From positions 1-12,186 of the forward strand of contig DYJV01000067.1 in assembly GCA_020722945.1 (NCBI GenBank): 12,186 nt of DNA, given 5' to 3'. Positions 960 to 12,186 of this stretch are shown piece after piece; the stretch's first letter is position 1, and each line of letters opens with the position of its first letter. The DNA comes from Candidatus Methylomirabilis sp. (lineage in GTDB: Bacteria; DYJV01). The notes beneath the pieces were generated by a model, which saw only the letters and a program-made list of their open reading frames with translations, was not told the origin of the DNA and did no database searches. A program made the position numbers and the translations under genes.

Positions 960-1295
960 ATGAAACAAGAGATAACACTAGAGGGTGCTACAATACCATT
1001 TTACAAAGATACGATAGAAGGAATTGTAACATATAGTTTTGATAGTAGTAGATGTGGGCATCCAGAACCTATGATAAATGCGATGGTTGGGCTTCAGAAT
1101 ATCAAAGATAATGAAAAATTAATTATGATAAATCATAAAGCACCAGCAGGACTTTTTCCTAAAGTTGAAAATGATTTTAATTACGAAGTGATAGAGCTTG
1201 AAAATGGGACATTCCAAATTACTTTTTCAAAAAAAGGCGATGGAAGTAATACAAATTTTAATGATAGAGGATGTAGTGGAGGTGGATGTCACTAG
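960..1295 (+). CDS. DUF2249 / TusA-like small protein
   Basis: This 111-residue cytoplasmic protein has no signal peptide. The core around residues 22-90 fits the DUF2249 fold, which is related to the sulfur carrier TusA: a first strand (IVTYSFDSS), then CGHPEPM at 32-38 in the place of the TusA CPxP motif, a helix (INAMVGLQNI), a strand with LIMINHKAP and a final pair ending in FQITFSK. C32 is the obvious candidate for a sulfur- or metal-handling residue. The tail adds a glycine- and cysteine-rich motif (CSGGGCH, C105, C110, H111) absent from plain TusA, possibly a metal site. It is first in an FNR-type operon and lies ten bases upstream of a membrane protein gene. In nitrate- and NO-respiring bacteria such genes often accompany NnrS- or oxidase-like genes. 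Family assignment is moderately sure; the function is unknown. Confidence 0.7.
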   Translation: MKQEITLEGATIPFYKDTIEGIVTYSFDSSRCGHPEPMINAMVGLQNIKDNEKLIMINHKAPAGLFPKVENDFNYEVIELENGTFQITFSKKGDGSNTNFNDRGCSGGGCH

Positions 1296-1304
1296 GAAAA
1301 TCTT

Positions 1305-2537
1305 ATGGCTGTTTCAACAGATTTTGCCCCACCTTTTAGGCTTATTGCCCCATATTTTATATTCGGAATACTTTTTTATATAGGGAGTATTTTATATCTT
1401 TTTGAGATAAATGTATCAAATCTATCTCATTTTTTTCCAAATACACTTTCTTTCATCCATATTTTTTTATTGGGATTTGTAATGATGATTATTTTTGGAG
1501 CAATGGCTCAACTTGTTCCTGTCGTTTTGGAAGTTGGACATTTTGCAATTGATTTATATTATATAATCTATCCACTTTTAACCATTGGTACTTTACTTAT
1601 GGGATATGGATTTGTATCATCTCCAATATTGCTTCCTTTTGGTGGTCTTATTGTTTTGATTGCGATGGGGATTTTTTTATTTGAAACATTAATGACTATC
1701 CAAAAAGTAAAAAAACTCAATTTTGTAATGAAAACAGTTTTGATAGCAAATATTTTTCTTTTTTGTGGACTTATATTTGGGATTATAATGGCTTTGGGTT
1801 ATGGTGGCATTATTGTTGTAAATATAGAAAAATATCTAATTTTTCATCTATTTTTGACATTTTTTGGTTATGTTGGGGTTACGATTATGGGGATGAGTTT
1901 AGTGCTTTTGCCTATGTTTTGGCTTTCTCATGGCTTTAGTTGGAAAAGTATAGAATATAGCTTATATAGCTTTATTCTTAGCGTTATAGCAATTACCTTA
2001 TATATTATCTTTTCAAGTAATTTGCTTCTTTTTATCGGATATGCTTTGATTATCATTTCAGTGGTCTTGTATCTTAATCAAATTTTGATTATTTATAAAA
2101 CAAGAGTAAGAAAAGAGAATGATATCTATTTTAAATCAATATTTTTTTCTTATATTAGCTTATTTATAGCACTTTTGCTTGGAATAAGCTTTTTAATCTT
2201 GCAAAATGAAAAGTTACTCTTGCTTTTTGGTTGGATATTATTGTTTGGCTATATTGGCAATATTATTACTGGACATTTGTATAAAATTGTCCCTTTCTTA
2301 GTATGGTATCAAAGATTTTCACCACTAATAGGGAAGCAAAAAGTACCGATGTTAGCTGACATGGTTCCCAAATTAGGAGCAACTTATCAGTTCTATTTTA
2401 CTGTTTTTGGGCTACTACTTAGTAGTTTTGCAATAGGATTTGGCAATAATGAGCTATTTTACACTGGTGTGAGTTTTCTGTTAATAGGAGGAGTTTTTAT
2501 GTTTAAAAATCTACTTTTTATGATAAATTTTAAATAA
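1305..2537 (+). CDS. Polytopic membrane protein, heme-copper oxidase subunit I-like / NnrS-like
   Basis: This 410-residue inner-membrane protein has about 11-12 hydrophobic segments. Two segments resemble the heme-binding helices of heme-copper oxidase subunit I and NorB: IHIFLLGFVMMIIFGAMAQL with PVV following (H52), and HLFLTFFGYVGVTIMGM with LVLLPMF following (H181). A third conserved-looking stretch is TGHLYKIVPFLVWYQRF (H324). The other histidines at 79 and 209 lie near helix ends. The full catalytic set of an oxidase or NO reductase is not evident, so I read it as a non-canonical member of this fold rather than a terminal oxidase. Its length suits NnrS (about 400 residues), the NO-stress membrane heme protein, but I do not see a clear NnrS signature. 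The start codon lies nine bases after the previous stop with AGGAAAA overlapping it, so the two are cotranslated. The function is inferred only as NO- or denitrification-related membrane chemistry. Confidence 0.65.
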   Translation: MAVSTDFAPPFRLIAPYFIFGILFYIGSILYLFEINVSNLSHFFPNTLSFIHIFLLGFVMMIIFGAMAQLVPVVLEVGHFAIDLYYIIYPLLTIGTLLMGYGFVSSPILLPFGGLIVLIAMGIFLFETLMTIQKVKKLNFVMKTVLIANIFLFCGLIFGIIMALGYGGIIVVNIEKYLIFHLFLTFFGYVGVTIMGMSLVLLPMFWLSHGFSWKSIEYSLYSFILSVIAITLYIIFSSNLLLFIGYALIIISVVLYLNQILIIYKTRVRKENDIYFKSIFFSYISLFIALLLGISFLILQNEKLLLLFGWILLFGYIGNIITGHLYKIVPFLVWYQRFSPLIGKQKVPMLADMVPKLGATYQFYFTVFGLLLSSFAIGFGNNELFYTGVSFLLIGGVFMFKNLLFMINFK

Positions 2538-2556
2538 ATGATATAAAGGATAATTA

Positions 2557-2862
2557 ATGATAACAAAAGAAGAAATTTTTAAAGCAGTATCAACAGTCAA
2601 TGACCCAGAAGTGGGATTTAATCTAGTCGAGATGGGACTTATTTATGATGCTGTATCAAATGAAAAAGATGAAGTAAGAGTAATTATGACTCTAAGTACA
2701 AGAGCTTGTCCCTTGCATCAGATGATTGTTCAATGGGTAGAAGAAGCCGTTTTGAGAGAAATCTCAACAGCACAAAGTGCAGAAGTTGAATTAGTTTGGG
2801 AACCTTCTTGGAATATTGGTATGGCAACACCTGAAGTTAAAGCAAAACTTGGAGGATTTTAA
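2557..2862 (+). CDS. DUF59 / MIP18-family iron-sulfur cluster assembly protein (SufT/PaaD-like)
   Basis: This 101-residue soluble protein has the family hallmarks: NDPEVGFNLVEMGLIYD at 15-31, the strand VRVIMTLSTRACPL with C51 (the usual reactive Cys of the TxxxCP loop), and a C-terminal W-E-P-S-W-N motif (81-86) followed by a helix ending LGGF. Proteins of this type help insert or repair Fe-S clusters. It is the last gene of the operon, 19 bases after the membrane protein, with AAAGGA at 2545-2550 serving the ATG. Next to a DUF2249 protein and an oxidase-like membrane protein, it suggests maturation or repair of a metal centre under low-oxygen or nitrosative conditions. The family call is firm, but the client protein is unknown. 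It is not the standalone SUF operon, because no sufBCDS genes are present. Confidence 0.85.
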   Translation: MITKEEIFKAVSTVNDPEVGFNLVEMGLIYDAVSNEKDEVRVIMTLSTRACPLHQMIVQWVEEAVLREISTAQSAEVELVWEPSWNIGMATPEVKAKLGGF

Positions 2863-2930
2863 GTATTCATTTTCAGATTGTCAAATATAAACTTTAGGTG
2901 GTCATTTGGTTATCAAGAAACAGCCATTTC

Positions 2931-3033
2931 AAAATCCCTAAATCATAGGTTTTTAGGAATTGCATGGTTAGATTTTTCATTTTAAAGGAGGTAAGATATG
3001 AAAAATTTTTAACAACTTATATTGACAATCTTA
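2931..3033 (-). ncRNA. Candidate FNR-driven small RNA, leftward
   Basis: The minus-strand promoter at 3081-3040 predicts a start near 3033. About 75-100 bases later the transcript would form a hairpin: on the minus strand ATTCCTAAA (2960-2952) pairs with TTTAGGGAT (2942-2934), nine pairs including one U-G, followed by a short U run. This gives a transcript of roughly 100 nt with no convincing ORF. The U tract is short (about four), so termination may be inefficient, and read-through would be antisense to the DUF59 gene. This is inferred from promoter geometry and the hairpin only; it may instead be a relic promoter. Confidence 0.25.
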
Positions 3034-3071
3034 AATGCGATTTTACTTATAAAAGTTATAAAAGTCTTTGA
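2984..3071 (+). pseudogene. Decayed gene start: strong RBS followed by a frameshifted short frame
   Basis: AAAGGAGGT (2984-2992) sits at ideal distance from an ATG at 2998, but the frame reads M-K-N-F and stops at 3010-3012. The stop arises at a run of five T's (3006-3010). With one extra T the frame would continue as MKNFLTTYIDNLKCDFTYKS and end at the TGA at 3069-3071, inside the left 21-bp repeat. This looks like the 5' end of a gene broken both by a homopolymer slip and by the junction with the rep-containing segment. The original product is not recognisable. An alternative is a regulatory leader with a mini-ORF, or an assembly error in the T run. Confidence 0.4.
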
Positions 3072-3081
3072 CTTAAATCAA
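3040..3081 (-). promoter_or_regulatory. FNR-type class II promoter pointing left
   Basis: On the minus strand the box TTGAT-TTAA-GTCAA (3081-3068) is centred at 3074.5, and a -10-like TAAAAT lies at 3045-3040. The distance from box centre to -10 is 29.5 bases, the same as in the DUF2249 promoter and within one base of the napA promoter. The first 21 bases match the napA promoter at 20 positions, and the -10 hexamer is identical. No convincing gene lies downstream on this strand. On the plus strand the same palindrome has no suitably placed -10 and would only read against rep. Confidence 0.55.
3061..3081. repeat. Left copy of a 21-bp inverted repeat flanking the rep module
   Basis: AAAGTCTTTGACTTAA followed by ATCAA is, with one mismatch (20/21), the reverse complement of 4360-4380. 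The similarity stops abruptly at the outer edge. The two copies enclose about 1.3 kb holding rep and its iterons. Each copy includes a full FNR-type box, so the repeat may reflect promoter duplication, element ends or recombination sites. Confidence 0.75.
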
Positions 3082-3097
3082 TTTAGTATAAAACCCT

Positions 3098-4030
3098 CTA
3101 AAACAGTGTATTTGGCTTTTGCATCTTGAGTTTGCTAATTTTCTTAACAGTCTGATACAAAGCCGTATCTTTTTTCTTCATATCACCAAAGTGGATAGTA
3201 TATTTTTTATCTTTACCCATGCTTCTAAGCTCTCCATCTGCATCAAAATAGAACTCATTCCCATCATCATCAACAGCGATAATCTTACCAGCATTAAAAT
3301 TGGCACACAAGAAGATATAAAACTTTTCAAGTTCTTTTACTTTGATATTTTTCCAACCGATATATTTGTCATCAGGGTCAAATGTCCAATTTAGCTTTAA
3401 AATCGCTCCTGTTTGCTTCCCACCTTTTTTAACCTTCTCAACAACCAAATTTTTAAAAAAAGGTGTTAAATCTTTCACAATTCGTTTAAATTCTTTGTTG
3501 ATATTTGCTTTCCCCCAATTTGCAATGCCTATTAAGTCTAAAAACTCTGGATAATCAATCGTCAAAAATCCTGTCATTCTAAACTGTTTTAACATCCGAT
3601 AGATGGTTTTTGAGTTGGTTTTGCTCAAAGACACAAACTGCTCCAGCTCAAAACGAGTAAAATTACTTGTTACAGCATTTAAAATATATTCAAACTTTTT
3701 ATTTGTTTGGATTAAAACAGTATCTTTTGTTTTATTAATTTTATATTCTGTAAATAAAACAAATTCTATATACTCTTCTTCATTCTCGATAGGCATAGTA
3801 CTTACCAATAATTTTTTATATGTTTTTTTAATATCCGATATAAATCTTTCTCTCGAAGTTGATTTATAATCAATTAGCTCTTTTATCTTTTCAAAACTAA
3901 GTTCTATCTCCGATAAGTTTTTATCTCTCATTTGTTGGCAAACAGCGAAAAATATATTAAACTCGATTTCTGTAAAGTGATTAAAATTGACTAAATTCAT
4001 ATTGTTATGATACTTCACAACTTCATTCAT
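3098..4030 (-). CDS. Rep_3-family plasmid replication initiator
   Basis: This 310-residue protein resembles RepB/RepE-type initiators that bind iterons and open a plasmid origin. The first winged-helix region covers about residues 12-120 (FNHFTEIEFNIFFAVCQQM, then ELSFEKIKELIDYK). The second starts near 123 with the typical NFTRFELEQFVSL, followed by KTIYRMLKQFRMTG, the helix EFLDLIGIANWGK and FKRIVKDLTPFFKNL. Length is normal for the family. The basic C-terminal stretch (residues 275-310) is lysine-rich. The start at 4030 is supported by AAAGGA six bases upstream and a consensus promoter just behind it. Iterons lie directly upstream, the classical arrangement. No partition, relaxase or toxin-antitoxin genes are visible. 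The frame is intact, so either the window is part of a plasmid or chromid, or a plasmid integrated recently. Confidence 0.88.
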   Translation of the reverse strand: MNEVVKYHNNMNLVNFNHFTEIEFNIFFAVCQQMRDKNLSEIELSFEKIKELIDYKSTSRERFISDIKKTYKKLLVSTMPIENEEEYIEFVLFTEYKINKTKDTVLIQTNKKFEYILNAVTSNFTRFELEQFVSLSKTNSKTIYRMLKQFRMTGFLTIDYPEFLDLIGIANWGKANINKEFKRIVKDLTPFFKNLVVEKVKKGGKQTGAILKLNWTFDPDDKYIGWKNIKVKELEKFYIFLCANFNAGKIIAVDDDGNEFYFDADGELRSMGKDKKYTIHFGDMKKKDTALYQTVKKISKLKMQKPNTLF

Positions 4031-4049
4031 AAAAATCCTTTTTTTATAA

Positions 4050-4079
4050 ATTATAACAAGTTATAGTGTTAATTGTCAA
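4050..4079 (-). promoter_or_regulatory. Sigma-70-type promoter of rep with iteron-like operator
   Basis: On the minus strand, TTGACA (4079-4074) and TATAAT (4055-4050) are both perfect hexamers, 18 bases apart. Between them on the plus strand, GTTATAGTGTTAATTGT (4060-4076) matches the inverse of the 22-bp iteron at 16 of 17 positions. An inverted iteron half over the promoter is the usual autorepression site of Rep_3 proteins, where Rep dimers shut down their own gene. The promoter is seen directly; the autoregulation is inferred from the family. Confidence 0.75.
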
Positions 4080-4098
4080 TACGAACACTATAATAAAA

Positions 4099-4180
4099 TA
4101 CAATTTACACTATAACTACATACAATTTACACTATAACTACATACAATTTACACTATAACTACATACAATTTACACTATA
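4099..4180. repeat. Iteron array (22-bp direct repeats) of a replication origin
   Basis: The unit TACAATTTACACTATAAC followed by TACA occurs three times in perfect tandem (4099-4120, 4121-4142, 4143-4164), followed by a 16-base partial copy (4165-4180). A further fragment, ACACTATAA at 4085-4093, continues the series toward rep. The 22-base period equals two helical turns, so all copies face the same side, as expected for Rep binding. The adjacent A+T-rich stretch (about 4183-4215) could be the unwinding region. I see no confident DnaA box. There are no spacers, so this is not CRISPR. Confidence 0.88.
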
Positions 4181-4218
4181 GCCTTACATTATATAAAAGA
4201 TTTAACAAAATATAGATG

Positions 4219-4256
4219 AAAAAAGGGGAAAAGAATAGTTCCTATTTTTTAACCCC
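4219..4256 (-). terminator. Intrinsic terminator-like hairpin, minus strand
   Basis: GGGG (4225-4228) pairs with CCCC (4253-4256), and AAAGAATAG (4230-4238) pairs with CTATTTTTT (4242-4250) around the loop TTC, with a small internal loop between the two helices. On the minus strand the stem is followed at once by TTTTTT (4224-4219), a proper U tract; on the plus strand there is none. It would stop leftward transcription before it enters the iterons. No minus-strand gene precedes it here, so it may be a relic of the rep module's former neighbour or an insulator. Confidence 0.45.
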
Positions 4257-4359
4257 AAAATTAGACTATAAATGAGCTAGTTTTCATTGAATTTGAGAGT
4301 TAAATAATTAAATTAGCACAATGACCAAATATAGATATGTTAGAATTAGAATTAAAAAC

Positions 4360-4380
4360 TTGACTTAAGTCAAAGACTTT
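4360..4380. repeat. Right copy of the 21-bp inverted repeat
   Basis: This is the reverse complement of 3061-3081 with a single mismatch (G at 4369 in the centre of the box). It forms the FNR-type box of napA plus the following AGACTTT. Beyond the repeat there is only scattered similarity to the left copy, chiefly the shared TAAAAT -10 hexamer. Confidence 0.75.
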
Positions 4381-4402
4381 CTACCTTCTTAAAAGCTAAA
4401 AT
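4360..4402 (+). promoter_or_regulatory. FNR-type class II promoter of the nap operon
   Basis: The perfect palindrome TTGACTTAAGTCAA (4360-4373) is centred at 4366.5, with a -10-like TAAAAT at 4397-4402 and a predicted start near 4408. The box is therefore at about -41.5. TTGAC...GTCAA halves are recognised by FNR/FixK/DNR-type regulators. AAGGAGG at 4427-4433 then serves the napA ATG at 4440. Because the box lies inside the right copy of the 21-bp inverted repeat, the promoter may be a consequence of, or may predate, the arrival of the rep module. Confidence 0.8.
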
Positions 4403-4439
4403 AAAACTTATATAGACAAATATCAAAAGGAGGAAGAAA

Positions 4440-7298
4440 ATGTCTTTAAATCGTAGAGATTTTTTAAAGAGTTCTGCAGTAGCTAGTGCGGCTGCGGCTA
4501 TTGGTATGAATATTCCATCAAAACTTAAAGCTGATGCCCAAGAGGCTGAAGCGGGTTGGAGATGGGATAAAGCAGCTTGTAGATTCTGTGGTACAGGCTG
4601 TGGGATAATGATGGCAACTAAAAATGGGAAAATAGTCGCAGTAAAAGGCGACCCAGCAGCTCCAGTAAATAGAGGGCTTAACTGCATAAAAGGCTATTTT
4701 AATGCAAAAATAATGTATGGTGCAGATAGACTTAGAACCCCATTACTTAGAATGAATGACGCAGGAGAATTTGACAAAAAAGGTAAATTTACTCCAATTT
4801 CATGGGAACGAGCTTTTGATGAAATGGCTAAACATATGAAAATAGCATTAAAAGCAAGTGGGCCTGAAGGAGTGGGTGTTTTTGCGAGTGGACAATATAC
4901 CATCATGGAAGGTTATGCAGCTTCAAAAATGATGCGTGGTGGATTTCGTTCAAATGCATTTGACCCAAATGCTAGACACTGTATGGCAAGTGCAGTTACT
5001 GGATTTTATCAAACTTTTGGGATAGATGAACCAAGTGGGTGTTATGATGATATAGAACTTACAGATACTGTTGTTTCATGGGGTTCAAATATGGCAGAGA
5101 TGCACCCAATTTTATGGTCAAGGGTAACTGATAGAAAATTAAGTGACCCAGAAAAAGTTAAAATCGTTAGTATCCAAACCTATACCCATCGTACAAGTGA
5201 TATGGCAGATATTGAAATCATATTTACTCCAAATACTGACCTTGCTCTTTGGAATTATATTGCTCATGAGATAGTTTACAATCATCCTGAAGCTATTGAT
5301 TGGGATTTCGTCAACAAACACATTGTTTTTGCTTCGCAACCTGTAAATATTGGTTATGGACTTAGAAGGTCTGATGAAAAATCTATTAAAGACGGAAAAT
5401 ATAGCGATAAAGAGATGCAAACCATATCTAAAGAGATGTCTAAAGTTGTATCTGCAACAGAAGCTCCAGCACTCGCACCTTTTGGATATAAAGAAGGCGA
5501 TATCATGAAAAATGAAACGCCAATGGTTAACGATAAACCTAATGTTCTAAAACACTGGGAGATATCTTTTGAAGAGTATAAAAAATTCTTAGCACCTTAT
5601 ACGCTTGATTATGTTGCTAAAATTTCTAAAGGTAATCCTGATGAACCGATAGAAAAATTTAAAGAAAAACTCAAAGCATTAGCTGATTTATATATCGAGA
5701 AAGAGAGAAAAGTAGTCTCTTTTTGGACAATGGGAATGAATCAACATACTCGTGGAACTTGGGTAAATACACTTTCTTATAATGTTCACTTTTTACTTAA
5801 TAAACAAGCAAAACCAGGGAGTGGAGCATTTTCTCTTACAGGTCAACCATCGGCTTGTGGAACAGCTAGAGAAGTTGGAACTTTTACTCATAGATTACCT
5901 GCTGATATGATGGTCGATAATCCGAAACATAGAGAAATTACAGAAAAAGCATGGAATTTACCAGCTGGAACCATTAATCCAATTGGAAACCAACACATTA
6001 TGAAGATTCATAGAGACCTTGAAGATGGTTTCATGAAATTTGCATGGGTTAATGTTTGTAATCCATATCAAGATAGTGCAAGTGCTACGCATTGGATTAA
6101 AGCTGCTAGAGAAATGGATAATTTTATTGTAACAAGTGATGGTTATCCAGGCGTAAGTGCAAAAGTAAGTGACCTTGTTTTGCCATCTGCTATGATTTAT
6201 GAAAAATGGGGTGGATATGGTAATGCGGAAAGAAGAACACAACTTTGGAGACAACAAGTTTTACCAGTAGGGGATGCTATGAGTGATACTTGGCAATGGG
6301 TTGAGCTTAGTAAAAGATTTACCGTTAAAGATTTGTGGGGAGAATGGCCACTTAGAGGAAAAGATGAAAAAGGAAATCCCAATAAACTTCCTAGCGTTAT
6401 AGAACAAGCAAAAGCGATGGGTTACAACGAAAACACAACTATGTTTGAAATTCTTTTTGCCAATACAAAAGCAAAAAGTTATAAATTAGATAAAGAAGAC
6501 CCTATTCAAAAAGGCTATGATAATACAGAAGGCTTTGGAGATAGCCGAAATGTGGTAGGAAGTGATGGTAAAGTTTTTAAAGGTTATGGCTTTTTTATTC
6601 AAAAATATTTATTTGAAGAGTATGCAGCTTTTGGTAGAGGTCATGCCCACGATTTAGCAGATTTTGATACCTATCACAGAGTAAGAGGATTAAAATGGCC
6701 TGTTGTTGATGGTAAAGAGACTCAATGGAGATTTAATGCCAAATATGACCCTTATGCAAAAAAATATGGTGCAGAAACTGGTCATACAGAGTTTGCTTTT
6801 TATGGGAAAATTGCAAAAGAGTTAAAACAAGGAGATTTAAAAGGAATAACAGACCCAAAAGAGACAAAACCAAAACCTCTTACCAATAAAGCCAAAATAT
6901 TTGCTAGACCTTATATGGATCCACCTGAAATTCCAGATACAGAGTATCCAGTTTGGTTATGTACAGGTCGTGTATTGGAGCATTGGCATAGTGGAACAAT
7001 GACCATGAGAGTTCCAGAGCTTTATCGAGCAGTTCCAGAGGCATTATGCTATATGAATCCAAAAGACGCAGAGACTTATGGAGTAAAACAAGGTGAGCTT
7101 TGTTGGGTTGAAAGCAGAAGAGGAAAAGTTAAAGCTAGAGTAGAGACAAGAGGTAGAAATAGACCAAGCAGAGGTTTAGTTTTTGTTCCATGGTTTGATG
7201 AAAAAGTACTTATAAACAAAGTATCTCTTGATGCAACTTGTCCACAATCTAAACAAACAGATTATAAAAAATGTGCAGTAAAAATTTATAAAGTATAA
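4440..7298 (+). CDS. napA: Periplasmic nitrate reductase, catalytic subunit NapA
   Basis: NapA reduces nitrate to nitrite in the periplasm at a Mo-bis-molybdopterin guanine dinucleotide centre. The N-terminus is a Tat signal ([17 protein letters not shown]), so the folded, cofactor-loaded enzyme is exported. The [4Fe-4S] cluster is held by C47, C50, C54 and C82 (CRFCGTGC ... NCIKGYF, with the conserved Lys K84). The Mo ligand is C181 in [10 protein letters not shown]. The C-terminal molybdopterin-binding region with [17 protein letters not shown] (about 841-857) is intact. At 952 residues it is about 120 longer than E. coli NapA. Much of the excess sits near residues 305-420, a lysine/glutamate-rich insertion common to epsilonproteobacterial enzymes. 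The start is fixed by AAGGAGG six bases upstream and by the Tat motif. It is first in the operon, behind an FNR-type promoter, and 31 bases before napG. Confidence 0.97.
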
Positions 7299-11901: not shown

Positions 11902-12186
11902 ATGGATAGCATTAAAGAGTATCTTTTAAAACAGAGTCTATTTGAGGGATTAAATAGTGAAGAGATAGAACTACTTTGCAACTCATCTATCTTAAAAAAA
12001 TATTATGTTGGTAATATTTTATTTTACGAAAAAGAAGAACAACATAGTATTTATTATTTAGTCCAAGGTGAACTCAAAGTTTATAAAGTAAATAGGATAG
12101 ATAACGAAATATTTCTTTATAATCTATTTAATGGCACTTTAATCTCAGAAATTACTGACTTAGATGGAAGTATTAAATGTTTTGCT
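11902..12186 (+). CDS. Crp/Fnr-family transcriptional regulator, N-terminal part
   Basis: The 95 visible residues match the cyclic-nucleotide-binding-like beta-roll of Crp/Fnr regulators: LKQSLFEGLNSEEIELLCNS, a beta-roll core with the turn IYYLVQGELKVYKV, then NEIFLYNLFNGTLISEIT. The helix-turn-helix domain lies outside the window. No Fnr-type N-terminal cysteine cluster is visible; the only cysteines so far are C26 and C93. It is therefore not an oxygen-sensing [4Fe-4S] Fnr by sequence and more likely belongs to the Crp, NssR or Dnr-like branch. The ATG at 11902 lies 17 bases after the PAS gene; upstream ATGs at 11889 and 11892 are in a frame that stops at once. The ribosome binding site is weak (GGA). 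As the last visible gene after nap, it is a candidate activator of the FNR-type boxes in this window. Confidence 0.82.
   Translation, partial: MDSIKEYLLKQSLFEGLNSEEIELLCNSSILKKYYVGNILFYEKEEQHSIYYLVQGELKVYKVNRIDNEIFLYNLFNGTLISEITDLDGSIKCFA

Follow-up and report, generated by a model that had tools for sequence, protein, structure and literature searches.

Replicons of the Rep_3 family replicate by the theta mode, and several of their origins have been described. In those of the pCI305/pWV02 type, 22-bp iterons lie upstream of rep and an inverted iteron half lies at the rep promoter (PMC4293149), and pSK639 has the same layout of iterons and rep promoter, its operator being not proven (PMC5703833). 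Plasmids of Campylobacter fetus and Staphylococcus (L238 and L239) likewise carry 22-bp iterons and, within reach of the rep promoter, one copy in inverted orientation; an Enterococcus plasmid (L235) also has 22-bp iterons. The locus analysed here shares with all of these an initiator of about 300 amino acids with a Rep3_N domain and tandem 22-bp iterons just upstream. A second point of comparison is pSULKU01, a 118-kb plasmid of Sulfuricurvum kujiense and thus of a member of the Campylobacterota, whose nap operon is complete and has the gene order of ours, followed as here by PAS and crp genes. Its NapA is 69% identical to the one described below, and within 12 kb of its nap operon there is no relative of our Rep.

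The window, meaning the whole stretch of DNA that was analysed, is an entire contig (C119) of 12,186 bases from a draft metagenome genome of 2.51 Mb in 184 contigs, with a completeness of 98% and a contamination of 5.8%. Its NapA groups with those of L012, L016 and L023 in a 36-protein tree (support 92/96); the latter two are labelled Arcobacter and Aliarcobacter, and by NapA the window is Arcobacter-like. A further NapA, 87% identical to that of the window, comes from a record (L011) titled Helicobacter pylori PMSS1; the record is a metagenome bin and its title is likely wrong. The features to which we refer are the following.

960–2862, plus strand: upstream operon of a DUF2249-like gene, a 410-aa membrane protein and a SufT-like Fe-S assembly gene, with an FNR box at 872
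3040–3081, minus strand: second FNR-type promoter, facing left, with box TTGATTTAAGTCAA, an AGACTTT extension and a -10 hexamer TAAAAT at 3045–3040
3098–4030, minus strand: rep, Rep_3 family replication initiator of 310 aa (Pfam Rep3_N; tblastn to plasmid Rep proteins)
4047–4076, no strand: probable Rep operator, an inverted half-iteron overlapping the rep promoter (GTTATAGTGT at 4060–4069)
4050–4079, minus strand (reads 4079–4050): rep promoter TTGACA-18-TATAAT with TG before the -10, 12/12 consensus match
4085–4180, no strand: 4.4 tandem 22-bp iterons, unit ACACTATAACTACATACAATTT (Tandem Repeats Finder, 95% matches)
4183–4359, no strand: A+T-rich flank past the iterons, a possible melting region judged from its sequence
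4360–4402, plus strand: native napA promoter, with FNR box TTGACTTAAGTCAA, an AGACTTT extension and a -10 hexamer TAAAAT at 4397–4402
4440–7298, plus strand: napA (NCBIfam NapA equivalog, above cut-off), first gene of napAGHBFLD, whose order continues to 11417

This arrangement is best read as an ordinary iteron theta-replicon core of the 22-bp-iteron Rep_3 type. It differs from the Rep_3 theta plasmids of Firmicutes and Campylobacterota in that its iteron sequence is unrelated to theirs, its putative second winged helix (WH2) seems too diverged for Pfam, and the module adjoins a respiratory operon. Compared with other napA promoters of Campylobacterota, the locus adds a second, inverted copy of the promoter, which lies 1.3 kb further upstream and is separated from the first by the rep module.

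The preliminary description had proposed an intact Rep_3 gene, and the protein bears this out, as its frame is open over all 310 codons and its residues 5–148 match Pfam Rep3_N (PF01051) at 1.8e-24 and 87.2 bits against a cut-off of 22.4. Neither rep nor the iterons show decay. In tblastn searches the nearest plasmid Reps, from Macrococcus, Enterococcus and Leptotrichia, were 38–42% identical, and those of Campylobacter and Helicobacter were about 30% identical or less. In initiators of this family the WH2 domain (Rep3_C) is the one that binds the iteron. The Rep of the window had no match to Pfam Rep3_C, which its plasmid relatives do match, although the corresponding region aligns with theirs; a single-sequence fold of the protein gave a pLDDT of 42, too low for use, and a search of the PDB returned no sequence match. 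This Rep is the only copy in the genome. A second Rep_3 match, on a virus-like contig (C166), was set aside as unrelated to it; on that contig, this weak match adjoins a dUTPase-like frame that has a long additional N-terminal portion (L113, 178–2070), and the contig, viral or foreign in appearance, may be contamination in the draft genome. Neither Rep nor the iteron matched anything in viral contigs. Rep was also not found in 145 relatives or in the phylum, a negative that means little because just two genomes of the phylum were covered.

The iterons and the rep promoter likewise agree with the earlier account. The half-iteron ACACTATAAC occurs in three exact copies in the array and once, inverted, at 4060 inside the rep promoter, with only two exact matches elsewhere in about 1.3 Mb of the remaining genome, and the segment 4047–4076 matches every copy of the iteron in inverted orientation (83% over 30 nt). 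By analogy of layout, Rep would bind as a monomer to the 22-bp iterons, melting the A+T-rich flank, and as a dimer to the inverted half-iterons of its own promoter, where it would repress rep and so set the copy number. The rep/iteron core would act as an origin, placed upstream of an intact FNR-regulated nap operon. The view that the origin looks complete holds for rep, iterons and promoter; it is weakened by the missing Rep3_C match and by the lack of any DnaA box in 4031–4440 at up to one mismatch to TTATNCACA or TTTTCCACA. A DnaA box in the origin is required only in some Rep_3 iteron replicons. The origin DNA itself had no match in plasmids.

Whether nap here lies on a plasmid or beside a plasmid core in the chromosome were the two readings offered at the outset, and both are live. 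We judge it rather probable that C119 comes from a plasmid, or a larger extrachromosomal replicon, that carries nap. An active plasmid keeps an intact, undecayed origin, the layout of this one recurs in the plasmids L238 and L239, no ends of an element were seen, the contig has an IS3 transposase at its edge, and pSULKU01 is a precedent in the Campylobacterota for nap on a plasmid. No relative of Rep was detected by tblastn in 80 related nap loci, within the flanking DNA covered (69 of the 80 have at least 1.5 kb upstream of napA); conservation of the same rep beside nap, which had been named beforehand as a result that would speak against the earlier interpretation, was not seen. Against a plasmid, the contig carries no partition, relaxase or other plasmid gene, the PF03432 relaxase was not found anywhere in the genome, Rep lacks the Rep3_C match that its plasmid relatives show, and no DnaA box was found in the origin. 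The preliminary description had proposed checking for a circular contig, and C119 proved to be linear, with ends that do not overlap. Both ends cut genes, the IS3 transposase (1–717) and a Crp/Fnr regulator (11902–12186); a search of the genome assembly found neither missing half, the second half of crp included, and no partner contig for either end. The composition of C119 is within the genome's range (the tetranucleotide distance at 12 kb is exceeded by 12% of genome chunks). Its napA is the only one found in the draft genome, and the Fe-S genes are also single copy; NapB and NapD were identified by Pfam. In many relatives nap looks chromosomal, as it lies mostly on long contigs, some of more than 200 kb, that are presumably chromosomal.

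A smaller but still appreciable probability goes to integration, in which a plasmid core, or a whole small plasmid that was later reduced, entered the chromosome between the DUF2249 operon and napA and its origin was silenced or tolerated. The module does lie between an FNR-regulated operon and nap, as had been stated, with the FNR box at 872 preceding the DUF2249-like gene. Integration is consistent with the nap promoter being left whole at -80, with the ordinary composition of the contig and with the lack of other plasmid genes on it. It also draws on six loci (L067, L069, L077, L080, L084 and L087) in which the DUF2249, membrane and Fe-S genes are followed by napA after 250–300 bp with no rep. 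These loci supply the empty-site comparison that had been called for, although they are Sulfurovum-like and distant from the window in the NapA tree, and they are an analogy to an empty site, not proof of insertion. In the closest NapA sisters (L012, L016 and L023) nap does not have the upstream operon as a neighbour, and for the window's lineage the Sulfurovum-like loci are therefore no true empty site. The nearer Aliarcobacter loci L027–L029 and L033 carry two genes of the operon, membrane and Fe-S, downstream of nap and on the opposite strand. From the placement of the operon in these relatives, the window's gene order is therefore derived. Integration is further opposed by the undecayed state of rep and the iterons and by the surroundings of the core, which show no target-site duplication, no integrase and no transposon ends.

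The same trio of DUF2249-like, membrane and SufT-like genes, or as many of them as the flank reaches, also stands beside nap in L045, L060, L056, L082 and L088, and across the Campylobacterota its orientation relative to nap varies between upstream, downstream and inverted. This recurrence suggests, from gene neighbourhood, a functional link with nitrate or nitric-oxide metabolism.

It is very unlikely that the contig is a misassembly or binning chimera joining a plasmid core to the nap operon. A draft metagenome genome in 184 contigs with 5.8% contamination, and contig ends without a partner, would allow such an error, but the joints hold no repeat that could mislead an assembler except the short 21-bp sites, and composition is uniform.

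Those 21-bp sites were described earlier as inverted repeats bracketing the module, and they do so at 3061–3081 and 4360–4380, with a match of 20/21 (22/24 when extended). The similarity of the two edges reaches weakly to about 47 bp at 83%, the part downstream of the repeat being not significant alone (12% of shuffles). We searched for the repeat elsewhere, as had been proposed; at up to three mismatches, its 20-bp core has two other matches in 2.5 Mb, compared with one for a reversed control. The edge repeats are above chance. An FNR box, which is palindromic and functionally constrained, makes up 14 of the 21 bp in each, and at both edges the distance from this box to the -10 hexamer is 22–23 nt, both pointing outward. 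An FNR box of this form precedes napA in 64 of the 80 related nap loci, 70–180 bp upstream, and the right-hand box of the window lies 80 bp before the napA ATG, a position shared with many relatives. In the columns after the box in these 64 loci, the -10 hexamer has T, A and T at positions 23, 24 and 28 with 85% conservation; to this spacing consensus the left copy fits exactly and the right copy fits with one extra base. Because box and -10 spacing match the nap promoter consensus, both edges are, on sequence grounds, outward-facing FNR-type promoters, the right one napA's own. Neither inverted edge belongs to the replicon.

AGAYT follows the FNR box at 16 of the 64 nap promoters, including those of the sisters L016 (AGACTTAT) and L023 (AGACTTTA), so the idea that the repeat is a common extension of the FNR box stands for the napA promoters of relatives. 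It does not stand for this genome, where the extended motif TTGAYNNNNRTCAAAGAYTT has an exact fit only at the two edge sites and the fuller form has a single one-mismatch relative outside the locus. Since the genome has only these two exact sites, the left copy may be a local inverted duplication of the promoter. At about 5855–5890 in L043 and L046 the napA FNR box lies inside a longer palindrome (AAATCTTTGACATAAGTCAAAGATTT), which may make the AAAGAYTT extension a symmetric site for protein binding in its own right.

We consider it most improbable that the repeats are, as had been suggested, the ends of a mobile or invertible element carrying rep and the iterons: their 20/21 inverted match, its weak extension and the near absence of the fuller motif outside the locus would suit such ends, but the greater part of each repeat is an FNR box at nap-promoter spacing from a -10 hexamer, the extension recurs at napA in relatives, L016 and L023 among them, relatives with napA and the same box exist without rep, and only rep lies between the arms, with no recombinase or transposase and no flanking duplication. 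A search for direct repeats flanking the edges found nothing beyond a 14/15 match at 3014 and 4405, which is at chance level by a rough estimate. With the edges read as FNR promoter sites and not as mobile-element ends, the module is therefore probably a plasmid core of the ordinary sort, carried by a replicon for nitrate respiration.

The left promoter points towards the Fe-S assembly gene, at its 3' end, and has no recognisable gene downstream. It may mark either a lost divergent gene or a nap promoter that was copied in inverted form when the module arrived. In L022 and L026 a divergent crp is present, and two boxes precede napA at a distance of about 30 bp from each other. At 2981–3010, in front of the left promoter, a perfect ribosome-binding site and an ATG are followed by a stop after four codons (MKNF), which may be a leader or what is left of a lost gene; the strip 2863–3060 otherwise holds a possible frame-shifted 24-residue peptide, and neither this nor the five-codon frame has convincing relatives. 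That the two outward FNR promoters bracketing the origin let oxygen status tune origin activity or copy number, and through it nap dosage, is a speculation to which we give scant credence.

If nap is not plasmid-borne here, the module is otherwise an ordinary plasmid core. Its Rep/iteron pair is far from known plasmid types and might serve as the starting point of an Arcobacter vector. Should C119 be a plasmid, it would be the second case in the Campylobacterota, after pSULKU01, of a periplasmic nitrate reductase kept on a plasmid, and it would help to explain the movement of nap between Arcobacter-, Sulfurimonas- and Sulfurovum-like bacteria.
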